Origin: Candidatus Fraserbacteria bacterium
GTDB lineage: Bacteria > Bipolaricaulota > Bipolaricaulia > RBG-16-55-9 > JAJCYT01
Assembly: GCA_029262795.1 (NCBI GenBank)
Contig: JAJCYT010000002.1
Location: forward strand, 1 to 48,286
Reading direction: 5' to 3'
Length of the DNA stretch: 48,286 nt
Shown: piece by piece, positions 5,019-47,366 of the stretch
How the letters are laid out: each line of letters opens with the position of its first letter
How positions within the stretch are numbered: the stretch's first letter is position 1
Notes under the pieces: generated by a model
Told to the model about the DNA's origin: nothing
Database searches by the model: none
Seen by the model: the letters and a program-made list of their open reading frames with translations, nothing else
Translations under genes and position numbers: made by a program

Positions 5019-5046
5019 ACGGTTGGCTTGCCCTGAAGCCAACCGT
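5019..5046. terminator. Bidirectional hairpin between convergent genes
   Basis: A perfect 11-bp stem (5019-5029 with 5036-5046) with a 6-nt loop sits between the end of the regulator and the stop of the minus-strand gene at 5083. A T-rich run follows on the minus strand. On the plus strand a run of seven T lies about 15 nt further on. Confidence 0.75.
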
Positions 5047-8038: not shown

Positions 8039-8683
8039 ATGAATGTTTTAAAACAAATGATGACGTTGGTTGGTGTTGGTTCGATAATCTTCTTGCTCAC
8101 AGCTTGTGCAGGACTCAAATTGCAGGAAGAAAACCGTAAGGATTATTTTCAGAACGTATACACGTTCCCAGTCCATGATGCCCAGGGAAATGAAGTTAAA
8201 CCTTCTGTCATGGTAAACAATGCCACTGCAGAACTTATTACAAGCGTTGGCGGTACAGTGATGGCAGTACGTGGCTTTGGCTTGCCGGAAGGCGATGCAG
8301 TCACCGCATGGTGGGTTATCTTCAATCAGCCTGAAAACTGCAGTGATGGTGTTTGTGGTGAAGACGATGTGTTACCGATGCCTGGCAATGAGGCCGCTGG
8401 TGTGTCCGTCTTGTTTGCCGACGGTCAAGTAATCAATGAACAAGGGAGTGCCTTCTTCTGGGATGCCTTGGGACGTGGCGACACCATGGAAGCTGTTTTT
8501 GGCCCAGGATTGACCAATCCGATGGGCGCTGAAATCCACTACGTGCTTCGCACACATGGTCCGGTTCAGGAAGACATCAAAGAAGAGCAGCTTACCACCT
8601 TAATGGGTGGCTGTGCAGCCGAAGCTCCGCACGCGCCTTGCCAGGACCTTCAATACGCTGTATTCAAACAAGTATTGCCATAG
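8039..8683 (+). CDS. Lipoprotein paralog of the secreted protein at 5083-5886
   Basis: This 214-aa predicted lipoprotein has a signal peptide ending in the lipobox LLTAC, with Cys23 to be lipidated. The mature core is colinear with the protein at 5083-5886: YTFPVHDAQGNE, AVTAWWVIFNQPENC, CGEDDVLPMPGN, GVSVLFADG, FGPGLTNPMGAEIH and LRTHGP. Four cysteines are shared in pairs and could form disulfides. It lacks the C-terminal dockerin-like module of its paralog. The function is unknown. One paralog in each of two divergent units under matching repeats suggests a shared surface role. GCGAAAGGA lies just before the ATG. Confidence 0.8.
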   Translation: MNVLKQMMTLVGVGSIIFLLTACAGLKLQEENRKDYFQNVYTFPVHDAQGNEVKPSVMVNNATAELITSVGGTVMAVRGFGLPEGDAVTAWWVIFNQPENCSDGVCGEDDVLPMPGNEAAGVSVLFADGQVINEQGSAFFWDALGRGDTMEAVFGPGLTNPMGAEIHYVLRTHGPVQEDIKEEQLTTLMGGCAAEAPHAPCQDLQYAVFKQVLP

Positions 8684-8837
8684 GCAGTAAGGGCTCTTAG
8701 GGATGAGGGCTACAGGGAGAGGGGTCAATGATTCCTCTCCTTACACACTAAAACCTGAACTCAAAAAATTCCTTTGGACAATCCAGGGAATTTTCACCTA
8801 TAAAACTTTTCCAAAGCAAAACCCAGGAGAGATTAAA

Positions 8838-9818
8838 ATGAAACTTAAGCATTTGATATATTTAGTCATGGTCTTATTTGCCATCCCATTTATTGGGGTG
8901 GATAGCGGAGAAGTGTTTTCCCAGGACTGTAGTCGCGTGCCGACCGCCTGCCCCCCTCCCCCAGACGATGGTGGCGATGATCCAGAAGACGAGGATGACC
9001 CAACTGACACACCAAACGATGATCCTTGTATCGCACAAGGTGAGGACCAAGACGGCGACGGCATTTGCGATTCTGAGGATGATTGTCCCGAAACATCAGG
9101 CAACCTGCCAAATGGGTGTCCAGATGAAGATGATCCAAGTGATGATCCTTGTGGCTCTCCCACCACGGGCTATGACGATGTCTATGTTCAGGAAGCCTGC
9201 CCCGAAGATGAAGAAACTGACACCTCCGGGAATGGGCCGGATGAAACTTCAGAAAATCCTGACCTAGAAATTCCAACGTTGTACATCAATGAATTGACCC
9301 CAGGTGGTTTAACAAGCAACCCGAATCAGTTTTATATTGAGTTTGCTGTTGCCGATAGAAACAAACATCGTGTAGATGGCTTCACCTTGGAATTCTACGA
9401 AATCTTGCCAAATGGTCAGCAGGTACTTTACGCACAAATCACTTTGGAAGGTGAAACCAACGAAGACGGTTTGTTCCTGCTGATGAGCGAAGCCCACGTG
9501 GTTCTCCACTTGAGTCAATCCATGCCAGAGATCCAAGTATCATCGTTTTCATTGCTCAAGGATAACTTGTCATTGGTGCTTAAAGATCCAGAAAATCAAG
9601 TGATCAGTACTTATAACCATGATGGTCAGACTGCTCCCGAAGGGGCAGGTCAAGGTGAACAGGCCGTTGAGCGTACTTTGCGCCTCGCGCCAGACCAAGA
9701 AGGCTGTTGGCAACTAAACACCGCCACTAACCCTTATTTTGTAGACCAATCCGGTATGCCCATTTATGGTAGTCCTTTGCAGGAAAACCCCGATGTTGAA
9801 GGAGGGAGCGCATGTTAA
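8838..9818 (+). CDS. Secreted Asp-rich protein with thrombospondin type 3-like repeats
   Basis: This 326-aa exported protein has a signal peptide at about residues 1-29, then an acidic, Cys-containing low-complexity region, about 30-150. Calcium-binding thrombospondin type 3-like repeats are visible in DQDGDGICDSEDDCPETSG. The C-terminal globular part (LYINELTPGG, then FYIEFAVADR and LSLVLKDPENQVIST) has the strand pattern of a lamin-tail-like domain, though this is tentative. I chose ATG 8838 behind AGGAGA; the open frame extends upstream to 8703 but without a ribosome site. The end overlaps the next gene by 7 bp, which suggests translational coupling. Role: probably cell-surface or matrix binding; unproven. 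Confidence 0.8.
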   Translation: MKLKHLIYLVMVLFAIPFIGVDSGEVFSQDCSRVPTACPPPPDDGGDDPEDEDDPTDTPNDDPCIAQGEDQDGDGICDSEDDCPETSGNLPNGCPDEDDPSDDPCGSPTTGYDDVYVQEACPEDEETDTSGNGPDETSENPDLEIPTLYINELTPGGLTSNPNQFYIEFAVADRNKHRVDGFTLEFYEILPNGQQVLYAQITLEGETNEDGLFLLMSEAHVVLHLSQSMPEIQVSSFSLLKDNLSLVLKDPENQVISTYNHDGQTAPEGAGQGEQAVERTLRLAPDQEGCWQLNTATNPYFVDQSGMPIYGSPLQENPDVEGGSAC

Positions 9819-10999: not shown

Positions 11000-11134
11000 A
11001 ATGTAAAAGTCTTTACAGAATTATGCTAAATTGTTTGTTATTTTGAAAACCTGTTCCCTTCAAAACCACTTCAGTCCCAATGAAGAAGAGTCTTTTGAAA
11101 CTAAATATAGGTGCAGATTTTTAAAAGGGGAGTT

Positions 11135-11731
11135 ATGAACAATCCGCTGATTATTATAGGTGCAATTGTAGTGGTGGCTGTTTTAGGATGGCTATTGTTT
11201 ACCGGTGGTGTAACTGGCCCCATTGATGCGGTTGGCGCAAGGGATTCAGTAAAGATTGCGTATGAAAGCGATGGATCACTGATAAGGCCCGACATTGGAT
11301 ATCGTCAATGGATTTTCGTAGGAACCCCAGTTACGCCAAACGATATGAACAATGGCAGTGCACCATTTCCTGAGTTCCATAATGTCTATATCAACCCAAA
11401 AGGCTATGCAGGATATGAGAAAACTGGCGTTTGGCCAGAAGGCACTGTGATGCTCAAAGAACTGACCAGTGTTGGAGCTAAGCAAGCGAGTAGTGGCAAC
11501 GGCTATTTTATGGGTGACTTTATCGGGCTGGAAGTTGCCATCAAAGATATCAACCGATACCCAGATGAGCCTGATGGATGGGCTTATTACAGTTTTGGTC
11601 ACTCATATCCATTGTTAGAATCGGCCATGCCCCAAGCGACTGGCTCCTGTGCAGCCTGTCACGTTGCAAATGCAGGAGACAACATGGTGTTTACCCAATA
11701 TTACCCTGTGCTTCGTGCGGCCAAACCATAA
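11135..11731 (+). CDS. Membrane-anchored cytochrome P460 family protein
   Basis: This 198-aa protein has an N-terminal membrane anchor (residues 3-19) and a cytochrome P460/c'-beta-type domain (YRQWIFVGTPVTPNDM, EFHNVYINP, VWPEGTVMLKEL). One haem c site, C172-A-A-C175-H176, lies near the C-terminus, so the domain should be extracytoplasmic. Family members act on hydroxylamine or bind NO. Whether the Lys-haem crosslink of true P460 exists cannot be told from sequence. The start at ATG 11135 follows AAAAGGGG. A paralogous domain lies in the next gene, and the local ccsA could supply haem attachment. Confidence 0.85.
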   Translation: MNNPLIIIGAIVVVAVLGWLLFTGGVTGPIDAVGARDSVKIAYESDGSLIRPDIGYRQWIFVGTPVTPNDMNNGSAPFPEFHNVYINPKGYAGYEKTGVWPEGTVMLKELTSVGAKQASSGNGYFMGDFIGLEVAIKDINRYPDEPDGWAYYSFGHSYPLLESAMPQATGSCAACHVANAGDNMVFTQYYPVLRAAKP

Positions 11732-11759
11732 TTCATGTGAACTATTGATCCAACATGAC

Positions 11760-11794
11760 ACACACCTCAACCAACAAACTTGGTTGAGGTGTGT
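11760..11794. other. 15-bp perfect hairpin between two P460 genes
   Basis: The stem 11760-11774 pairs exactly with 11780-11794 around the 5-nt loop CAAAC. No T-run follows, so it is unlikely to be a strong intrinsic terminator. An mRNA processing or stability element that sets different expression of the two neighbours is possible. Confidence 0.5.
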
Positions 11795-11832
11795 CTAAAT
11801 ACAGCATTTGATTTAGTGCAGAAGGGGGATTT

Positions 11833-12966
11833 ATGGACACTAAGGTTTTAATCCTGTTGGGAATTGCAGCCGCAGCAACCCTTGGAGTGGTGGTTTGGTT
11901 CTTTGTTGGTTTAGAGCCTGATTCATCAAAGCCCATTACCACGATTTCCCTCAACACAGACACCAGGGCAACATCATCCACCACACCAACAATATTGAAT
12001 CCGCCGTCCTCATTTACAGACAGTTTCACCAAGTACGTGGATGGAATGGGCCAGATGACGTTGCCCGATGATTTTCGATCCTCATGGATTCATCTGGGTG
12101 GCTTTGTGGACCCTGGCAATTTATCTGATGGCTATCATGACGTTTATACACAGCCCGGTGTGATTGAGGCCTATCGGCGCACCGGCACCTTTCCCGATGG
12201 GGCTGTCCTTATTAAGGAAGTGCGCGGACTGACCTCTGGTAATATGACCACAGGCCATATCAGTTGGGCCACAGATGTAGCCATCTGGTTCATGATGGTT
12301 AAGGATGAACAAAACCGCTATCCCAACAATCCTTTATGGGGTGAAGGGTGGGGATGGTCGCTGTATGAGGAAAAAGACCCAAACAAAAACATTGCTTCAA
12401 ACTATCAAAGCGATTGTCTGAGTTGTCATATTCCCGCTCAAGACAACGACTGGATCTACATCCAGGGCTATCCTGTCCTCCACGACGGGCAAGTAAGCTC
12501 ACTTCCGCCGCCAGCTCAATCGCCCACTGAGTCCACGCAAGTGGAGCCACCTGCAACGGGTGAGGTACACACGATCACCATCAACAGTGCAGGCAGTGAG
12601 AATTTCTTTGAGCCAGATCGGTTGCTCATTCAACCGGGAGATACTGTGAAATGGGTCAACGAAAGTGGCGCACACACAGTGACGTCCTTTCATCCGGACA
12701 ATGCCCGCCCCCTTCGTATCCCTGAAAGCGCCACCAGTTTTGATTCAGGCGTCATGCTAGAAACTGGTCTGACTTTTGAATTCACTTTTACTGAGCCTGG
12801 GGTGTACGACTATTTCTGCCTGCCTCATGAGTTTTTTGGCATGGTGGGCACCATAGTGGTTGGCGAAGCATTGGACGGCCCCGGTCTGGCCTCGGCCCAG
12901 GAAGACCTTCCAGATCCAGTCAAAGATGCATTGAGTGATTTGAATGAATGGGCCAAGCAGCAATAA
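11833..12966 (+). CDS. Cytochrome P460-cupredoxin fusion protein
   Basis: This 377-aa protein is anchored by an N-terminal membrane segment (about residues 4-24). A cytochrome P460-like domain (about 60-220: SSWIHLGGFVDPGN, FPDGAVLIKEV) ends in the haem c motif C195-L-S-C198-H199. After a Pro/Thr-rich linker comes a plastocyanin-like type 1 copper domain (about 244-350) with the copper ligands in order: H281 in GAHTVT, then C329, H332 and M337 in FCLPHEFFGM. A haem domain tethered to a blue-copper domain suggests electron transfer between substrate oxidation or NO chemistry and the respiratory chain. The cupredoxin is nearly identical, over about 320 bp, to that in the next gene. Start: GAAGGGGG before ATG. 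Confidence 0.85.
   Translation: MDTKVLILLGIAAAATLGVVVWFFVGLEPDSSKPITTISLNTDTRATSSTTPTILNPPSSFTDSFTKYVDGMGQMTLPDDFRSSWIHLGGFVDPGNLSDGYHDVYTQPGVIEAYRRTGTFPDGAVLIKEVRGLTSGNMTTGHISWATDVAIWFMMVKDEQNRYPNNPLWGEGWGWSLYEEKDPNKNIASNYQSDCLSCHIPAQDNDWIYIQGYPVLHDGQVSSLPPPAQSPTESTQVEPPATGEVHTITINSAGSENFFEPDRLLIQPGDTVKWVNESGAHTVTSFHPDNARPLRIPESATSFDSGVMLETGLTFEFTFTEPGVYDYFCLPHEFFGMVGTIVVGEALDGPGLASAQEDLPDPVKDALSDLNEWAKQQ
12565..12888 (+). repeat. Duplicated cupredoxin-coding segment, copy 1
   Basis: This segment aligns without gaps to 13860-14183 (offset 1295 bp) with high nucleotide identity. It encodes the same blue-copper domain at the ends of two otherwise unrelated proteins. It indicates recent module duplication or gene conversion. 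Confidence 0.8.
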
Positions 12967-12995
12967 AAAACGATCAAAATTGAGGGAGGCAATAA

Positions 12996-14261
12996 ATGGA
13001 AATTAGAACCCTTGTTGTAATCGGCTTACTTGCGGCACTTGGTGTTGCAGCTTTCTTCATTATCCAAGACACAACGATCTCTCCTACGACACCTCAAAAA
13101 GATTTGAGTTTGTATGAAAGGCTGGGAGGCAGGGATGCCATTACATCGGTCGTCAGCGCATTTGGACAACGTCTCTTTGATGATGCGAAATTGGATTCGT
13201 TTTTCGGCCGTTTAAATGAACAAGGCGAACAAAGGTTTATTCAACTCAATGTAGAATTTCTCTGCCAGGCGGCGGGTGGCCCCTGCCAATACACAGGCCG
13301 AAGCATGATTGATACCCATCGTGGCATGGGCACGTCCAATAACGATTTCGAACTTGTCGCTCAGCATTTAAGAGTGGTCTTAAAACAATTTAGCGTGCCA
13401 GCCAGAGAACAACGTGAGATTCTTGCTTTGATTGAAACCACCAGGAGTGATATCGTAGAGCCAGCTTTAACAGCTGAAAATTTAAGTCTATATGATCGGT
13501 TAGGTGGCTTGGATGCCATTTCTGCGGTCGTCAACAGTTTTACACAACGGCTCTTCGTAGACCCCGCAATGGATCGGTTCTTTGCCACCTGGGACGATGC
13601 AAAAAAACAACGGATCACTCAACTCATTGTGGAATTTCTTTGTGTGGCGGTAGGCGGCCCTTGCGAATACACAGGTCGTAGCATGAGTGATTCTCATCGT
13701 GGATTTGGTATTACCAATGACGATTGGACCCTCATGTCCCAGCACTTGAAAGCGACTTTCATTCAATTCAGTGTGCCAGACAGGGAACAAGGTGAACTTT
13801 TCACTTTAGTAGAATCCATCAAAAGTGATATCATAGAGTCATCCGCAACAACAAGTACCGTACACACGATCACCATTAATAGTGCAGGCAGTGAGAATTT
13901 CTTTGAACCCGATCGATTGGTTATTCAACCGGGGGACACCGTGAAATGGGTCAACGAAAGTGGCGCACATACCGTCACGGCTTTCCACCCAGATAACGCA
14001 CGTCCCCTTCGTATTCCTGAAGGCGCCACAAACTTTGATTCAGGCATCATGGCGGAAGCTAGCTTAACGTTTGAGCTTACCTTTACTGAACCTGGGGTTT
14101 ACGATTATCTATGTTTGCCTCATGAATTCTTCGGCATGGTGGGCACCATTGTGGTGGGCGAATCATTGGATGGTCCCGGCCTGACACCCCCACAGGGCGA
14201 ATTGCCCGGCGCTGTTCGGATTGCTCTTGATGAACTCAACGATTGGGCAAAAGGGCAATAG
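12996..14261 (+). CDS. Tandem truncated globins fused to a cupredoxin, membrane-anchored
   Basis: This 421-aa protein has an N-terminal membrane anchor (about residues 5-23). Two consecutive group I truncated haemoglobin-like domains (about 37-155 and 163-282) each begin LSLY-x-RLGG and contain GGPC-x-YTGRSM, with a proximal His (H108 in DTHRGM, H234 in DSHRGF). The helix-B Tyr that stabilises bound O2 in TrHbN is Gly in the first and Thr in the second, as judged from remembered alignment. Each globin has an extra Cys pair, FLC-x6-C, which could be a disulfide. The C-terminal blue-copper domain has H325, C373, H376 and M381. Exported globins joined to copper domains are rare. Haem binding, NO or nitrite chemistry is inferred. 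A GAGGGAGG ribosome site precedes the ATG. Confidence 0.85.
   Translation: MEIRTLVVIGLLAALGVAAFFIIQDTTISPTTPQKDLSLYERLGGRDAITSVVSAFGQRLFDDAKLDSFFGRLNEQGEQRFIQLNVEFLCQAAGGPCQYTGRSMIDTHRGMGTSNNDFELVAQHLRVVLKQFSVPAREQREILALIETTRSDIVEPALTAENLSLYDRLGGLDAISAVVNSFTQRLFVDPAMDRFFATWDDAKKQRITQLIVEFLCVAVGGPCEYTGRSMSDSHRGFGITNDDWTLMSQHLKATFIQFSVPDREQGELFTLVESIKSDIIESSATTSTVHTITINSAGSENFFEPDRLVIQPGDTVKWVNESGAHTVTAFHPDNARPLRIPEGATNFDSGIMAEASLTFELTFTEPGVYDYLCLPHEFFGMVGTIVVGESLDGPGLTPPQGELPGAVRIALDELNDWAKGQ
13860..14183 (+). repeat. Duplicated cupredoxin-coding segment, copy 2
   Basis: This is the second copy of the 12565-12888 segment, in the tandem-globin gene. The copper ligand codons are at the same relative positions. 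The short C-terminal tails after it (ending WAKQQ and WAKGQ) are also related. Confidence 0.8.
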
Positions 14262-14335
14262 AAAGTTTTTCTCAAAATCCCTGAACAAAGGATATGACCT
14301 GACTGTTTTGCAAATAATACAAGGAGGCATTTGAT

Positions 14336-15238
14336 ATGATAGACAGTACTCTATTCTTTTTCCTAAGTACAATTGGCTATTTTTTTGCATTTCTGTGTTA
14401 TTTGTTTTATGTGGTTTTTAAGCCTCACACACCTTTATCCAATAATTCAACCAGTCTTGGCATCACGGCCACCAGTGGAGCTAGTGCTATCCGTATTGAT
14501 TGGGGAAAATGGGGATCGAGGGTTACATTTGCCACGATGTTGGTTGCCTTTATCGGGGTCATTTTACGTACCATCGAGATTGGCAATGCCTCAAATTGGG
14601 TAATGAACGTGTTTTTGCCTGTCACTACAACCTATGAAACATTGGCTTTTTTCTCGTGGTTGATTCCGTTGGCGTATCTCATCATGGAACGGATGCACCC
14701 CATTCGCAGTGTGGGCGTCTTTGCCACAGGAATTGCATTGGTGATGTTAATTGTTGCTTCATTCCCCGACATCGCACCCAGGCAGGCCTCACCCATTGTG
14801 CCTTCCTTGCAAAGTTATTGGTTGGTCATTCACGTTTTGTCGATGATTATAGGGATGGCTTTTTTTACTGTGAGTTTTGGTTCAACCACTCTTTATGTGA
14901 TCCGTCGCTTACGAGGGGCTTCGTTTGATGATATTCGTCGGATTGAAGAAATGACTTACCGCGGCATTGCCCTGGGCTTTCCCTTTTATGGCATTGGCGG
15001 CTTGGTGTTTGGCGGCATTTGGGCCAAGGAGGCTTGGGGTGCTTATTGGGAATGGGACCCCAAAGAAACAGCCATGCTCACTGCCTGGCTTGTTTATGCG
15101 ATTTATCTACATGCAAGAGTGAAATGGGGACCACAAGCAAAAATCGTGGCTTGGTTATCAATTGCCGGATTCTTGGCTGTGATGTATGCTTGGATTGGAA
15201 TTAATTATTTTGTTGGTGGACTCCATAGCTTTACGTAA
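14336..15238 (+). CDS. ccsA: CcsA/ResC-type cytochrome c haem-handling protein
   Basis: This 300-aa polytopic membrane protein of the CcmC/CcsA family belongs to System II cytochrome c biogenesis, which delivers haem to apocytochromes outside the membrane. The tryptophan-rich WWD segment is clear (WGAYWEWDPKETAML), along with histidines in flanking helices (LVIHVLSMIIGMAF, AIYLHARVKWG) and about eight membrane spans. A strong AAGGAGG lies 9 nt before ATG 14336. CcsB, its usual partner, is not in this window. Its position right behind two c-type P460 proteins suggests it serves them. The stop lies 2 bp from the stop of the convergent Crp/Fnr gene, with no terminator between them. Confidence 0.88.
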   Translation: MIDSTLFFFLSTIGYFFAFLCYLFYVVFKPHTPLSNNSTSLGITATSGASAIRIDWGKWGSRVTFATMLVAFIGVILRTIEIGNASNWVMNVFLPVTTTYETLAFFSWLIPLAYLIMERMHPIRSVGVFATGIALVMLIVASFPDIAPRQASPIVPSLQSYWLVIHVLSMIIGMAFFTVSFGSTTLYVIRRLRGASFDDIRRIEEMTYRGIALGFPFYGIGGLVFGGIWAKEAWGAYWEWDPKETAMLTAWLVYAIYLHARVKWGPQAKIVAWLSIAGFLAVMYAWIGINYFVGGLHSFT

Positions 15239-15240
15239 GT

Positions 15241-15906
15241 TCACACCTCAATTAAATTTTTTAAAAGGCTAAGGTCATTCAAAACAATTTCTTTTCCACA
15301 TTTACTTATCAGGTTTTTTCGCTTTAGTTCTCCTAAAATTATTGAAGTGTATTCTCGAGATGTTCCAATCATGTAAGCTAAATCTTGATGTGTCAAATTA
15401 AAGCGTATATAGATTTTCCCATTGTCTTTTTCCCCAAATTGTTCTGCAAGGTCAAACAAGACATTAATTAGTCGATCCTTAATGGTCTTAAAAGTCATAG
15501 CCACCAATTTGTTTTTAATACTACCCAGTCGCTGACTAATCAATTCAGCAATTTCCAATATCAGTTCAGGATCTGTTTCAGCAATGTGCAAAAAATCATT
15601 TTTATGAATGACAAACACGGTGGTATCTTCAACAGCTTCAACAAAACAGCTTTGGCTCATATCGTTTGTCAAAGCTGTTTCTCCAAAAATTTCACCCGTT
15701 TGCATCATATCAATGGTTAACAGGTTCCCATCTTCGTTTCGAAAGCTTAGTTTTACAAGCCCCGATGAAATGAAAAAAAGTGAATTGTTGATTGATTCAC
15801 GTGCGTAAATGATTTCGCCTGATCTATAGTGCGAAGACCTAAAATACGGACTTTCTGTAAAATATTCCGTCCTCGAGGGTAAATTCTTTAATTGTAGATC
15901 AGGCAT
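15241..15906 (-). CDS. Crp/Fnr family transcriptional regulator
   Basis: This protein of about 221 aa has an N-terminal cyclic-nucleotide-binding-like beta roll (SGEIIYARESINNSLFFISSGLVKL, GEIFGETALTN) and a C-terminal winged helix (LTHQDLAYMIGTSREYTSIILGELKRKNLI). It lacks the N-terminal Cys cluster of FNR, so it is not an obvious Fe-S oxygen sensor. DNR/NnrR-like haem or small-molecule sensing is possible. The recognition helix keeps E-x-x-S but has Ile where FNR has Arg. I prefer ATG 15906 (AGGGG 7 nt upstream) over ATG 15927, which would overlap the preceding gene by 11 bp. Facing the P460/globin/CcsA cluster, it may control it. Confidence 0.85.
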   Translation of the reverse strand: MPDLQLKNLPSRTEYFTESPYFRSSHYRSGEIIYARESINNSLFFISSGLVKLSFRNEDGNLLTIDMMQTGEIFGETALTNDMSQSCFVEAVEDTTVFVIHKNDFLHIAETDPELILEIAELISQRLGSIKNKLVAMTFKTIKDRLINVLFDLAEQFGEKDNGKIYIRFNLTHQDLAYMIGTSREYTSIILGELKRKNLISKCGKEIVLNDLSLLKNLIEV

Positions 15907-15916
15907 TTTTGAACCC

Positions 15917-16201
15917 CTAGTTATCATTACAATCCGATTTGCAACTCTTTTCTGTTTCCACTTGGTTTATAGAAAGAATGGTTAATCCCAAGTTTTTGAT
16001 TTTTGCAATTAAGCCATACAAAGCCGCCTGATCTTTAATGCAGCCAGTCAGAATCGTTACAGATTGACCATCTTCATGACTTCGGGTGGTAATGGTCACC
16101 TGATCCAACCAGTCAGACCAATTAGCATTCAGCTTTCCTCGGATGCTTACCTCATAAACTGCGGGTAAGTCTGGTTTGTTTTGCCAATGTTTTTCACTCA
16201 T
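15917..16201 (-). CDS. Small conserved protein upstream of the Crp/Fnr gene
   Basis: This 94-aa protein has no signal peptide. It follows a pattern I have seen in unnamed small proteins of Chloroflexota: YEVSIRGKLNANWSDWLDQVTI, then DQAALYGLIAKIKNLGLTILSINQVE. It ends with a Cys pair (SCKSDC). The strands and helices suggest a compact alpha/beta fold. The function is unknown. It ends 10 bp before the preferred start of the Crp/Fnr gene and is probably co-transcribed with it, so it may modulate that regulator. Confidence 0.7.
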   Translation of the reverse strand: MSEKHWQNKPDLPAVYEVSIRGKLNANWSDWLDQVTITTRSHEDGQSVTILTGCIKDQAALYGLIAKIKNLGLTILSINQVETEKSCKSDCNDN

Positions 16202-16343
16202 TCATTCAACTTTCTAAACCTGGTGTCTGAATTCTTTAGAATCGTAGCCCTACGACGGTATTAATTACATCACCCAAAAGGGTTATTTGAGGTTCTAATG
16301 AGGTATTAGGTTTGGAGTTTACGTGATCGAATGAGGGTTCTGC

Positions 16344-19016
16344 TTAAGATAGGATATTTAGATTTCGGGCTTTGGCAATAGCATCCGTACGACTGTTGGC
16401 ACCCAATTTCCGATAGATTCGGTTCGTATGTACCTTGACTGTGTTGACCGACAAGAAAAGTTTACGAGCAATTTCTTTGTTTGTTAACCCTTTCGAAAGC
16501 GCTTGTAAAACTTCCAACTCACGCTTGCTCAAGGCATCAAGTAGGTGGTTTTTGGTTTTTGAAGAAGGTCTTATATCTTCTTCAACATTTTGTAAGGTGT
16601 TTTGAAGTTTGATAACAAAATCTGATGAGCTGTTTTTTTCGCTCACCTGTTGAAGGAGATAAGATATTTCATCCCCTTTATCCGTGAATAGGCGAACAAA
16701 ACCTTCCGACTCAGCAAGGGATAACGCTTGTGAAAACACAGACAGAGCTTTATTGATATCATCCTTTGACAGGTAAGCCAGTGCTTGAAGGATGTGGACT
16801 TCAATAACGCTTCTTAAACGGTTGTTATCTTCGGCTTCCTGTTTTAAGTGGTTTAATAGTTCCAAGGCTTCATCTGAATCCTGCTCCTCTTGGGAAAGAA
16901 GAAAACGTGCTTTTATAAGATTTTCAACTTCGTATTTGTAACCAAGTTCTGTCTTTATGCTAAAACCACTTTCGTTCACCCAATGGGCAGCTTCTGAAAA
17001 ATTTCCTTGAATCAATAACAGTTGTATTCGATAAGCAATGACTGATGGAATGGTCCAATATAAATTTTTACCATATTGGGCAATATTTCTTTCCGCCGTT
17101 TCAATGGACTCTATTGCTTCTTTTTCATCCCCCAAGGCCTGCTGTATCTGCGCCAAATTTACATAATAGCAAACCATCATATCGGGATTGCCTGAACGAT
17201 TTACGGAGTTAAAGGCTTCGCTTAAATATTGTTCAGCTTCCTCTACTCTGTTTTCTTCTAACAGCAATTCACACTGTGCCAGATAATGATAGCCAATGGC
17301 AGGCGAACTATTCCGCTCATTTTCACTCATCAGGTTTGAGGATGCTTCTAGAATCCTATGAGCTGCTTTTAACTTTCCTAAAGAGATTTTTATTCGAACT
17401 CTTAAATAGGTGGTGACCATGGCCAGGATGATTGAAAAAGTTTGGCCCTTGTTATTGGCTTCCTTGAGGTATTGCTCGGCATTCTCAAAATCGCCCAGCA
17501 AATAGTTGGCCCTTCCCAATCCTAATAATGTTGCTCCTTGTAAAAACAGATCGTTTTCAGGCAGGCGTTTGTAGGCTTGATGATTCAAATTAATGGCACC
17601 CAGCAAGTCTCCCGAAAGAAGTGCCAATTGAGCCTGGATGGTTTCTGTATGGCTAATCATGGCTTCTTTATCTATTGCAAAAGGTTTCGCATTGTAGTGT
17701 TTTTTAGCTTCATTTAATCTTCCTTCAGCTTTATTCGATTGGCGGGTTAGTGCCAATGCCAAAGCATGATAAATAGATAACCAAGGCCTACTGGTCACCA
17801 ATTCATCTGGCATATTGTTTAGCCATCCTAACAATGTGCCAAAAGCACCTTTTTGCAACATGCCCTGAGCCACTCGCTCTGCTTTGAGGGCAGCCCCTTT
17901 AAAATCTTTTCCTTCTAAAGCGTGATGGATCGATTCAGGAGCAAACTGATTTTGCTCAAACCAATCTGCTGCCCGAAGGTGCAGTTCAGCTACTTTTTCC
18001 GGTTGCATTTGCATGAGTCGTTGGCGCAGCATACTTGCAAACAAGCGATGATACCTGAACCAATGACGTTGATTATCGAGCGAAACAATAAACAAATTTG
18101 ATTTTTCGATGGCTTCTAACATGTTCTGGCCATTTTTTGTCTCTGTCACAGCATCACAAAGATCGCCTGATAGGCGATCAAGAATAGAGGTTTGAAGTAA
18201 AAAATCCTTGATAACTTCAGGCTGTTTTTCAATCACTTCCTCCGCCAAATAATCCACTATATAACGATCATTGTCGGCAAATGCCTTAATGAAGCTTGAG
18301 GTGTCTTGATTCCCCTGCAGAGAAAGGGCTGCTAGCTGCAGGCCTGCAATCCAACCCTCAGTAAAAGATTCCAGGGTGCGAATATTTGCGAGTGAGAGTT
18401 GCGTGCCTAAGGTATGGCTAAAAAATTCCTTGGCTTCATCTATTGAAAAGCGTAAATCATCCACACGGACTTCCATGATTTGCTGCCTTGCGCGCAGTTG
18501 TGCTAATGATAACGGAGGATCTTCACGAGTTATAATTACTAGGTGCATATTGGGCGGTAAATGTTTAATCAGAAAGCTAGTTATCTCGTGAATAGGATTT
18601 GATTGGATAAAGAAATAATCATCTAGCACAAGGATAAATTCATGAGATAAAGCTGAAATTTCATTGATAAATGGTGTTAACAATATTGTTGGGGAAGCCA
18701 AACCTGGGGAAAACACCACATTTTGAAGCCCCAAATCCAATTCTGGAAAAACCTGTGTAAGAGAAGCTTCTAAATATGTGAGAAATCGCGTAGGCTCATT
18801 ATCATCCTCATCTAAAGAAATCCATATGTTTGGCAATTCACTTTTACGAACCCAATCACTAATTAAAGTTGTTTTACCAAATCCTGCCGGGGCAGAAACA
18901 AGAATAAGCCGCTGAGACAATCCCTTATCCAACAAGTTGACTAATCTTGGCCGAGGAACATTGTTCTCATTTGGAAAGGGGCTGTATAATTTTGTAGTTA
19001 GTATTTGGGTTGGCAA
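16344..19016 (-). CDS. MalT-like LuxR family regulator (ATPase-TPR-HTH)
   Basis: This 890-aa STAND-type regulator has an N-terminal ATPase with Walker [10 protein letters not shown] at residues 42-50 and a Walker B-like [12 protein letters not shown] long helical region of TPR-like repeats follows, then a C-terminal LuxR-type helix-turn-helix ([42 protein letters not shown]). The architecture matches MalT-family activators, which bind DNA after sensing an inducer. The start is TTG at 19016, supported by AAGGAAG 7 nt upstream. It sits between the redox cluster and the glucan locus. Regulation of the latter is a possibility, but MalT-like proteins are numerous in such genomes and targets vary. 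The 142 bp between it and the small gene at 16201 hold nothing clear. Confidence 0.87.
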
Positions 19017-34836: not shown

Positions 34837-34867
34837 AATCCCTCCCACAGCACTTGTGGGAGGGATT
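34837..34867 (-). terminator. Hairpin terminator for the DUF885 gene
   Basis: A perfect 13-bp stem (34837-34849 with 34855-34867) and 5-nt loop are followed on the minus strand by TTTTATTT. It lies about 200 bp past the stop of the minus-strand gene and 90 bp past kbl, so it may serve both. The rest of 34749-35074 is featureless. Confidence 0.75.
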
Positions 34868-41004: not shown

Positions 41005-41032
41005 AAGAGGGGACATCCTGGTGTCCCCTCTT
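41005..41032 (+). terminator. Hairpin between reductase and cytochrome genes
   Basis: The 11-bp perfect stem 41005-41015 with 41022-41032 is followed by only TCT. It is probably a partial terminator or mRNA-end stabiliser that sets the ratio of the two proteins. Confidence 0.6.
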
Positions 41033-47338: not shown

Positions 47339-47366
47339 ATTCTGCATTATGGTTATAATGCAGAAT
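47339..47366. repeat. 11-bp inverted repeat ATTCTGCATTA / TAATGCAGAAT
   Basis: Perfect arms 47339-47349 and 47356-47366 around a 6-bp loop TGGTTA, without a T-run. It is a candidate attachment-site core, arm site or operator of the element that carries the recombinase. Confidence 0.5.

Follow-up and report, generated by a model that had tools for sequence, protein, structure and literature searches.

The 48,286-nucleotide contig JAJCYT010000002.1 of the Candidatus Fraserbacteria assembly GCA_029262795.1 (hereafter, the window) carries four adjacent forward-strand genes at 11135-15238 that encode, in this order, a cytochrome P460 (gene 1), a P460-cupredoxin fusion (gene 2), a protein with two truncated globin domains and a cupredoxin (gene 3), and a CcsA-type cytochrome c biogenesis protein (gene 4). 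This arrangement had been proposed in a sequence-only reading made without database searches, and the list of open reading frames, Pfam and NCBIfam confirm it, along with a Crp/Fnr gene on the opposite strand (15241-15927). Here we argue that the cluster may be an extracytoplasmic, membrane-tethered protective module, in which gene 1 would serve as the hydroxylamine oxidase, genes 2 and 3 as binders of nitric oxide (NO), and blue copper as the electron carrier; we put the probability of this reading at about 0.5.

Two P460 proteins of different kinds

The gene 1 product aligns across its domain with the solved P460 chains of Nitrosomonas europaea and Nitrosomonas sp. AL212 (E-values from 4e-51 to 4e-49; 7e-27 for PF16694) and has, at the sequence level, the features that define the family, namely the fold, the CXXCH motif, the Lys at the cross-link position and the distal carboxylate. 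The ATG at 11135, preceded by AAGGGGAG, is its likely start (the automatic list has GTG at 11111). Hydroxylamine oxidation by P460 requires the cross-link together with a well-placed carboxylate, and AL212 P460, with Ala in the carboxylate position, is inactive on hydroxylamine (PMC11928373). Since gene 1 has the required Lys, Glu and CXXCH, it is predicted to be competent in hydroxylamine oxidation. It resembles the N. europaea cytochrome (2je2, 8gar) over the whole domain, keeping its Lys, Glu, Phe and CXXCH, but differs from it in the membrane anchor, in the probable Bipolaricaulota host and in having copper-fused haem proteins as neighbours.

Gene 2 matches PF16694 (1e-23) and PF00127 (6.9e-13), and carries Phe153 where the catalytic carboxylate would be. 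Both this Phe and the Lys are found in all 18 aligned rows of a second P460 subfamily (the gene-2 type) and are invariant across a 13-row alignment. Because gene 2 is devoid of the catalytic carboxylate, the two P460s are not equivalent, and gene 2 probably does not oxidize hydroxylamine; the earlier view of P460 proteins acting on this substrate thus holds, as a prediction, for gene 1, whereas gene 2 probably departs from it. Nor is gene 2 a cytochrome c'-beta, a class marked by the absence of the cross-linking Lys, which is present here as Lys128 and in 18 of 18 rows. The presence of Lys and the absence of the distal carboxylate make gene 2 similar to AL212 P460 (6amg) and to other "halfway house" members of the P460/c'-beta superfamily; however, AL212 P460 has Ala at the carboxylate position, whereas gene 2 has a bulky Phe, subfamily motifs of its own and a C-terminal cupredoxin.

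The relatives of gene 2 are informative with respect to electron transfer. Among 66 typed relatives, 19 contain an extra CXXCH (cytochrome c), and two (P0050 and P0051) are fused to a gene-1-type P460; a cupredoxin occurs only in gene 2 itself and in one relative. Fusions such as P0055 and P0094 thus combine the same subfamily with an electron carrier, the carrier being cytochrome c in these proteins and blue copper in gene 2. In the tandem proteins, both P460 types are joined in one polypeptide, in which Pfam finds no copper or globin domain. A single alignment column, carboxylate versus Phe, divides the two types and points to their acting as a pair.

The globin-cupredoxin fusion and the predicted copper sites

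In gene 3, PF01152 is matched in two stretches (7.5e-30) and PF00127 once (2.2e-11). The structural model (pLDDT, the predicted local distance difference test, 84.4; pTM, the predicted template-modelling score, 0.44, so that domain placement is uncertain) yields folds that match group-1 truncated haemoglobins (trHb1) and pseudoazurin. Both globin domains belong to trHb1 by family match, fold and the proximal His at F8. TyrB10 and GlnE11, which hold O2, are the functional signature of the HbN-type NO dioxygenase; at these positions gene 3 has Gly/Asn in the first pocket and Thr/Ile in the second. Its relative P0002 has Ala/Asn and Thr/Ile, and therefore the difference between the two pockets is mostly conserved. 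Gene 3 is alike in fold and proximal His to HbN of Mycobacterium tuberculosis (1idr) and Shewanella benthica (8ugz), the latter of which also has the Cys at E16 seen in the gene 3 globins (PMC11904497); unlike HbN, gene 3 has tandem domains, a membrane anchor, a second Cys in the E-F region and a cupredoxin, and no TyrB10/GlnE11. The Cys pair, a conceivable disulfide, was present in 34 of 39 YTG motifs picked up by a loose regular expression among the 49 gene 3 matches; in S. benthica HbN, the Cys residues at E16 and F10 are too far apart for a disulfide (PMC11904497). Among the same 49 matches, the full architecture recurs only in P0002, and P0028 consists of a single globin with a cupredoxin.

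Two further globin types came to light. P0018 and P0021 join a globin, 65-69% identical to those of gene 3, to a PepSY domain, and come from relatives that apparently also possess P460 or copper fusions. On contig C6 of the assembly studied here (locus L005, 1501-1983), there is a second membrane-anchored globin, of 160 amino acids, with a gene-3-type anchor, which adjoins a gene that reads as TetR-like.

In both gene 2 and gene 3, the His-Cys-His-Met set of a type-1 blue-copper site lies within a predicted cupredoxin fold, and both domains would bind copper. The haem and copper ligands of the cluster proteins are complete at the sequence level and the predicted folds match; binding itself is a prediction. 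The two cupredoxins are 89% identical to each other here and 93% in the relative, and the orthologues from the two genomes (90 and 89%) are only as close as the paralogues within a genome. This closeness would reflect either duplication with conversion or strong constraint. Each of genes 1-3 encodes one strongly hydrophobic N-terminal segment (maxima of the Kyte-Doolittle score over 19 residues of 2.84, 2.56 and 2.77, all at residue 5), and the membrane anchoring that had been suggested for the P460 is a fair prediction for all three products.

Table 1. Features of the cluster, of the window and of related loci in the genome (positions are in the window unless a contig is named)
Feature	Position	Strand	Basis or remarks
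Gene 1, predicted membrane-anchored canonical cytochrome P460, 198 aa	11135..11731	+	PF16694; P460 domain 11297-11695
Gene 1 capping Phe78	11366..11368	+	aligned with Phe76 of AL212 P460; role per PMC11928373
Gene 1 putative cross-link Lys108	11456..11458	+	aligned with Lys106 of AL212 P460
Gene 1 distal Glu133, putative catalytic carboxylate	11531..11533	+	aligned with AL212 position 131 and with the N. europaea distal Glu
Gene 1 haem c attachment site CAACH	11648..11662	+	sequence
Perfect 15-bp hairpin without T-run, between genes 1 and 2	11760..11794	+	z -4.95; 0/200 shuffles fold as well
Gene 2, predicted membrane-anchored P460 (12064-12459) and cupredoxin (12604-12861)	11833..12966	+	Pfam, predicted fold
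Gene 2 Lys128, cross-link position	12214..12216	+	alignment
Gene 2 Phe153, replacing the catalytic carboxylate	12289..12291	+	Phe in 18/18 aligned gene-2-type domains
Gene 2 haem c attachment site CLSCH	12415..12429	+	sequence
Gene 2 putative type-1 copper ligands His281, Cys329, His332, Met337	12673..12843	+	order as in plastocyanin alignment
Gene 3, predicted membrane-anchored globin 1 (~13107-13454), globin 2 (~13485-13835) and cupredoxin (13899-14156)	12996..14261	+	Pfam, model
Globin 1 pocket Gly57 (B10), Asn85 (E11), His108 (F8); Cys90, Cys97	13164..13319	+	alignment
Globin 2 pocket Thr183 (B10), Ile211 (E11), His234 (F8); Cys216, Cys223	13542..13697	+	alignment
Gene 3 putative type-1 copper ligands His325, Cys373, His376, Met381	13968..14138	+	sequence
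Gene 4, CcsA-type cytochrome c biogenesis protein	14336..15238	+	PF01578 4.2e-38; TIGR03144 182.2 bits, just below the 187.6 cut-off
Crp/Fnr-family regulator	15241..15927	-	cNMP_binding, HTH_Crp_2
Six perfect hairpins, stems 11-15 bp, no T-run	16-50, 5019-5046, 11760-11794, 34837-34867, 41005-41032, 47339-47366		window scan
NirK, cytochrome c, weakly CoxB-like subunit, haem-copper protein nearest ba3-type oxidases, Rrf2 regulator	contig C1, 5043-9833		locus L069
Consecutive genes for a NorB-like protein, a small cytochrome c and NnrS, with CcsA and ResB farther on	contig C18, 6727-9878		locus L071

A proposed protective module and its genomic setting

Under the protective reading, gene 1 would oxidize hydroxylamine outside the cytoplasm, and its electrons would pass to the haem of gene 2 and further to the copper domain of the same protein, much as the relatives would use their fused cytochrome c. 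The NO that arises would be bound by genes 2 and 3, with the gene 3 globins binding NO (or O2) and staying redox-active through their copper domain, and the built-in blue-copper domains would exchange electrons with the respiratory chain, in one direction or the other. The module would serve to protect the cell from hydroxylamine and from NO, which its own NirK would make. As a precedent, cytochrome c'-beta took electrons from hydroxylamine-reduced P460 (PMC6427953).

The genome provides a nitrogen-oxide setting for such a module. A NirK scoring above its cut-off, with an extra N-terminal cupredoxin domain, is encoded on contig C1, and its gene group possibly represents a nitrite/NO reduction cluster; comparable Nir-cupredoxin chimeras are described in Chloroflexi (PMC8756737). 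On contig C18, a NorB-like protein, whose only two matches in the Protein Data Bank (PDB) are both NorB, is followed by a small cytochrome c, which we read as NorC-like from its position, and by NnrS (336.8 bits). Given these NirK, NorB-like and NnrS genes, the NO is likely made by the cell itself. Five haem-copper proteins of the genome are above the Pfam cut-off, two of which we take, from their neighbours, to be aa3-type and cbb3-like. A search of the genome for NosZ gave no match, the control genomes being equally silent. Thus, from the original proposal of a pathway that detoxifies or respires NO or hydroxylamine by means of blue copper, the hydroxylamine/NO module draws support from the residues, from the fusions of the relatives and from the nitrite- and NO-reductase genes, whereas NO respiration by the cluster has no specific support.

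The origin of the contig also deserves attention. Within its assembly (4,054,461 bases, 91.94% completeness, 4.37% contamination), the window corresponds to contig C2. Relatives of the cupredoxins are encoded on four further contigs of this assembly (46-55% identity) and elsewhere in the order (up to 53%), several of them with a C-terminal tail in common, and contig C6 has a globin (58%) whose anchor is of the gene 3 kind; contig C2 is therefore not an obvious contaminant.

Distribution, and what weighs against the protective reading

At the level of the taxonomic family, the searches covered this genome alone; at the level of the phylum, they covered 100 genomes, and a wider sample comprised 389. 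P460 was found in 2 of the 100 phylum genomes, the other protein being distant, at 60 bits against the gene-1-type profile, and in 33 of the 389. A second genome apparently encodes relatives of both gene 2 (P0012, 86%) and gene 3 (P0002, 82%). The records of these two proteins and of P0018 agree in the length of the longest contig, 3,217,265 bases, and equal values of this kind suggest, but do not prove, one and the same contig; it appears that genes 2 and 3 recur together. Similarly, a gene-1-type protein, P0167 (71%), shares a longest contig of 9,315 bases with the globin-PepSY protein P0021, so that P460 and globin probably occur together in a third genome. The conserved co-occurrence that the sequence-only reading called for is, therefore, partial: genes 2 and 3 have counterparts elsewhere, and the complete four-gene set was found in no other genome searched. 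A neighbourhood search of genome contigs yielded 14 stretches in three loci, matching either the cupredoxin part (two Streptomyces, 36-37%) or 21 anchor residues (one proteobacterium), with no fusion relative among them.

Several observations weigh against the protective module. No known source of hydroxylamine is apparent: PF13447, for the octahaem enzymes of the hydroxylamine oxidoreductase (HAO) type, has no match in the genome, although it has none in the control genomes either, and ammonia monooxygenase (AMO) and NrfA were not searched for. In 29 P460 loci inspected from the wider sample, the flanks of up to about 1.5 kb hold neither a globin nor a cupredoxin nor CcsA; one of these P460s is of the close gene-1 type (L037) and none is of the close gene-2 type. 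Electron acceptance is considered unlikely as the primary role of c'-beta (PMC6427953). A hairpin between genes 1 and 2 weakens the single-operon view.

The hairpin bears directly on the possibility of loose neighbours, with separate functions for gene 1, for genes 2-3 and for gene 4. When the whole window was scanned for perfectly paired stems of 11 bp or more, closed by loops of 3-8 nucleotides, six hairpins came up, all six outside the 31 listed genes, which makes the one at 11760-11794 the probable terminator of gene 1 (an automatic frame of 96 amino acids on the opposite strand overlaps it). Gene 1 is thus probably on its own transcript and genes 2-4 on another. The rarity of P460 in the phylum points the same way, as does the absence of a gene-1 relative from the P0002/P0012 genome among the best 120 of 3017 matches, a further point against the module. 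Yet P0050 and P0051 unite the gene-1 and gene-2 types in a single chain, gene-1 type and globin apparently share a genome in the case of P0167 and P0021, and the gene 2 and gene 3 cupredoxins have 89% identity; we consider mere adjacency unlikely.

Equally improbable, in our estimate, is a respiratory rather than protective role, with hydroxylamine electrons passing via cupredoxin into NirK, NO reductase (NOR) or oxidases to conserve energy. The wired carriers of genes 2 and 3 are consistent with it, as are the NirK with its extra cupredoxin and the NorB-like and oxidase genes of the genome; it is weakened by the failure to find an ammonia- or hydroxylamine-oxidation pathway, within the limits given above for HAO and AMO. 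Nor do we attach more than a small probability to an oxygen-side module, in which the gene 3 globins would use cupredoxin electrons for extracytoplasmic O2 reduction or buffering, with a side role for the P460s: tandem globins are frequent among the 49 gene 3 matches, and cable bacteria fuse truncated globins to a multihaem cytochrome as a suggested alternative terminal oxidase (PMC11976967), but the several haem-copper oxidase-family proteins leave no oxidase missing, and both pockets are devoid of the residues by which HbN holds O2.

Gene 4, the regulator and other features of the window

Gene 4 belongs to the CcsA family of System II cytochrome c biogenesis, so that the sequence-only reading was right about the family when it assigned the cluster its own haem-attachment factor. 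Dedication to the cluster is unsupported: the genome has at least two CcsA, the second (contig C18) being 45% identical to gene 4; no ResB lies among the neighbouring genes scanned; and globins hold b-type haem, which CcsA would not attach. Two ResB genes lie elsewhere, on contigs C18 and C30. One is accompanied by CcsA, the other by a thioredoxin-like gene, CcsA being absent from the adjoining frames of 150 amino acids or more, and the latter ResB could partner gene 4.

The gaps between the successive genes of the cluster are 101, 29 and 74 nucleotides, and in all four genes a purine-rich ribosome-binding sequence lies just 5' of the ATG. The Crp/Fnr gene is present as proposed, but it converges with gene 4 at a distance of 2 nucleotides and does not form a divergent regulator-promoter pair; because of this orientation, a promoter in common with the cluster is ruled out. 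It lacks the N-terminal Cys cluster of an FNR-type oxygen sensor, having only two Cys, neither of them near the N-terminus, and scores 51.5 bits to PRK11161 against a cut-off of 228. Its G+C content is 34.6%, compared to 46.7% for the window, and it may be of separate origin. There are no Crp/Fnr-like palindromes with up to one mismatch in 11000-16400; the window has 10 of the TTGAT type (shuffle mean 4.2) and 3 of the TGTGA type (2.3). Scans for promoter-like and terminator-like consensus sequences were no richer than shuffles (7 versus 10.4 and 5 versus 5.8, respectively). The six hairpins without T-runs may represent a terminator type of this lineage. Upstream, at 8039-9818, two genes for a lipoprotein-like protein of 214 amino acids and an acidic one of 371 have no Pfam or NCBIfam match at 0.01; for the gene at 9812, identity as NosD is ruled out (TIGR04247, 49.1 bits versus a cut-off of 300).

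Relation to known systems and implications

The families involved are known, whereas the architectures of genes 2 and 3 are, to the best of our knowledge, new. The closest analogies are fusions of a redox partner to an enzyme. In cable bacteria, globin-pentahaem proteins resemble gene 3 in combining an extracytoplasmic globin with an electron carrier, but the carrier is a multihaem cytochrome and O2 reduction is the proposed function (PMC11976967). Three-domain copper nitrite reductases with a tethered cytochrome c (PMC13324648) and the Chloroflexi chimeras (PMC8756737) likewise have the redox partner fused to a nitrogen-oxide enzyme; both enzyme and carrier differ from those described here, and for gene 2 the direction of electron flow is probably the opposite. 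A literature search, which left most subscription journals and all preprints outside, found no paper joining cytochrome P460, cupredoxin and globin and, in titles and abstract openings, no description of this gene set. Among the papers listed, a single one mentioned both P460 and plastocyanin, the latter in its references only, and P460 was absent from the papers found for this lineage.

Cytochrome P460 has, to our knowledge, no settled physiological electron partner. A directly testable candidate is provided by the P460 subfamily that is found joined to cytochrome c, to cupredoxin and to the catalytic P460 type. The cluster would also bring an N2O-forming enzyme family, together with NirK and NOR-type genes, to a genome that likely belongs to Bipolaricaulota, a phylum whose known members are mainly anaerobes. 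Most speculatively, and with low probability in our view, the cluster could be part of a copper-wired respiratory route from hydroxylamine to N2O, in which the catalytic P460 would deliver electrons to the non-catalytic P460-copper protein, the globin-copper protein would manage NO, and the cupredoxin pool would feed NirK, NOR or oxidases. If that were true, hydroxylamine oxidation would be part of respiration in this phylum, and P460 would gain a genetically encoded physiological electron partner.

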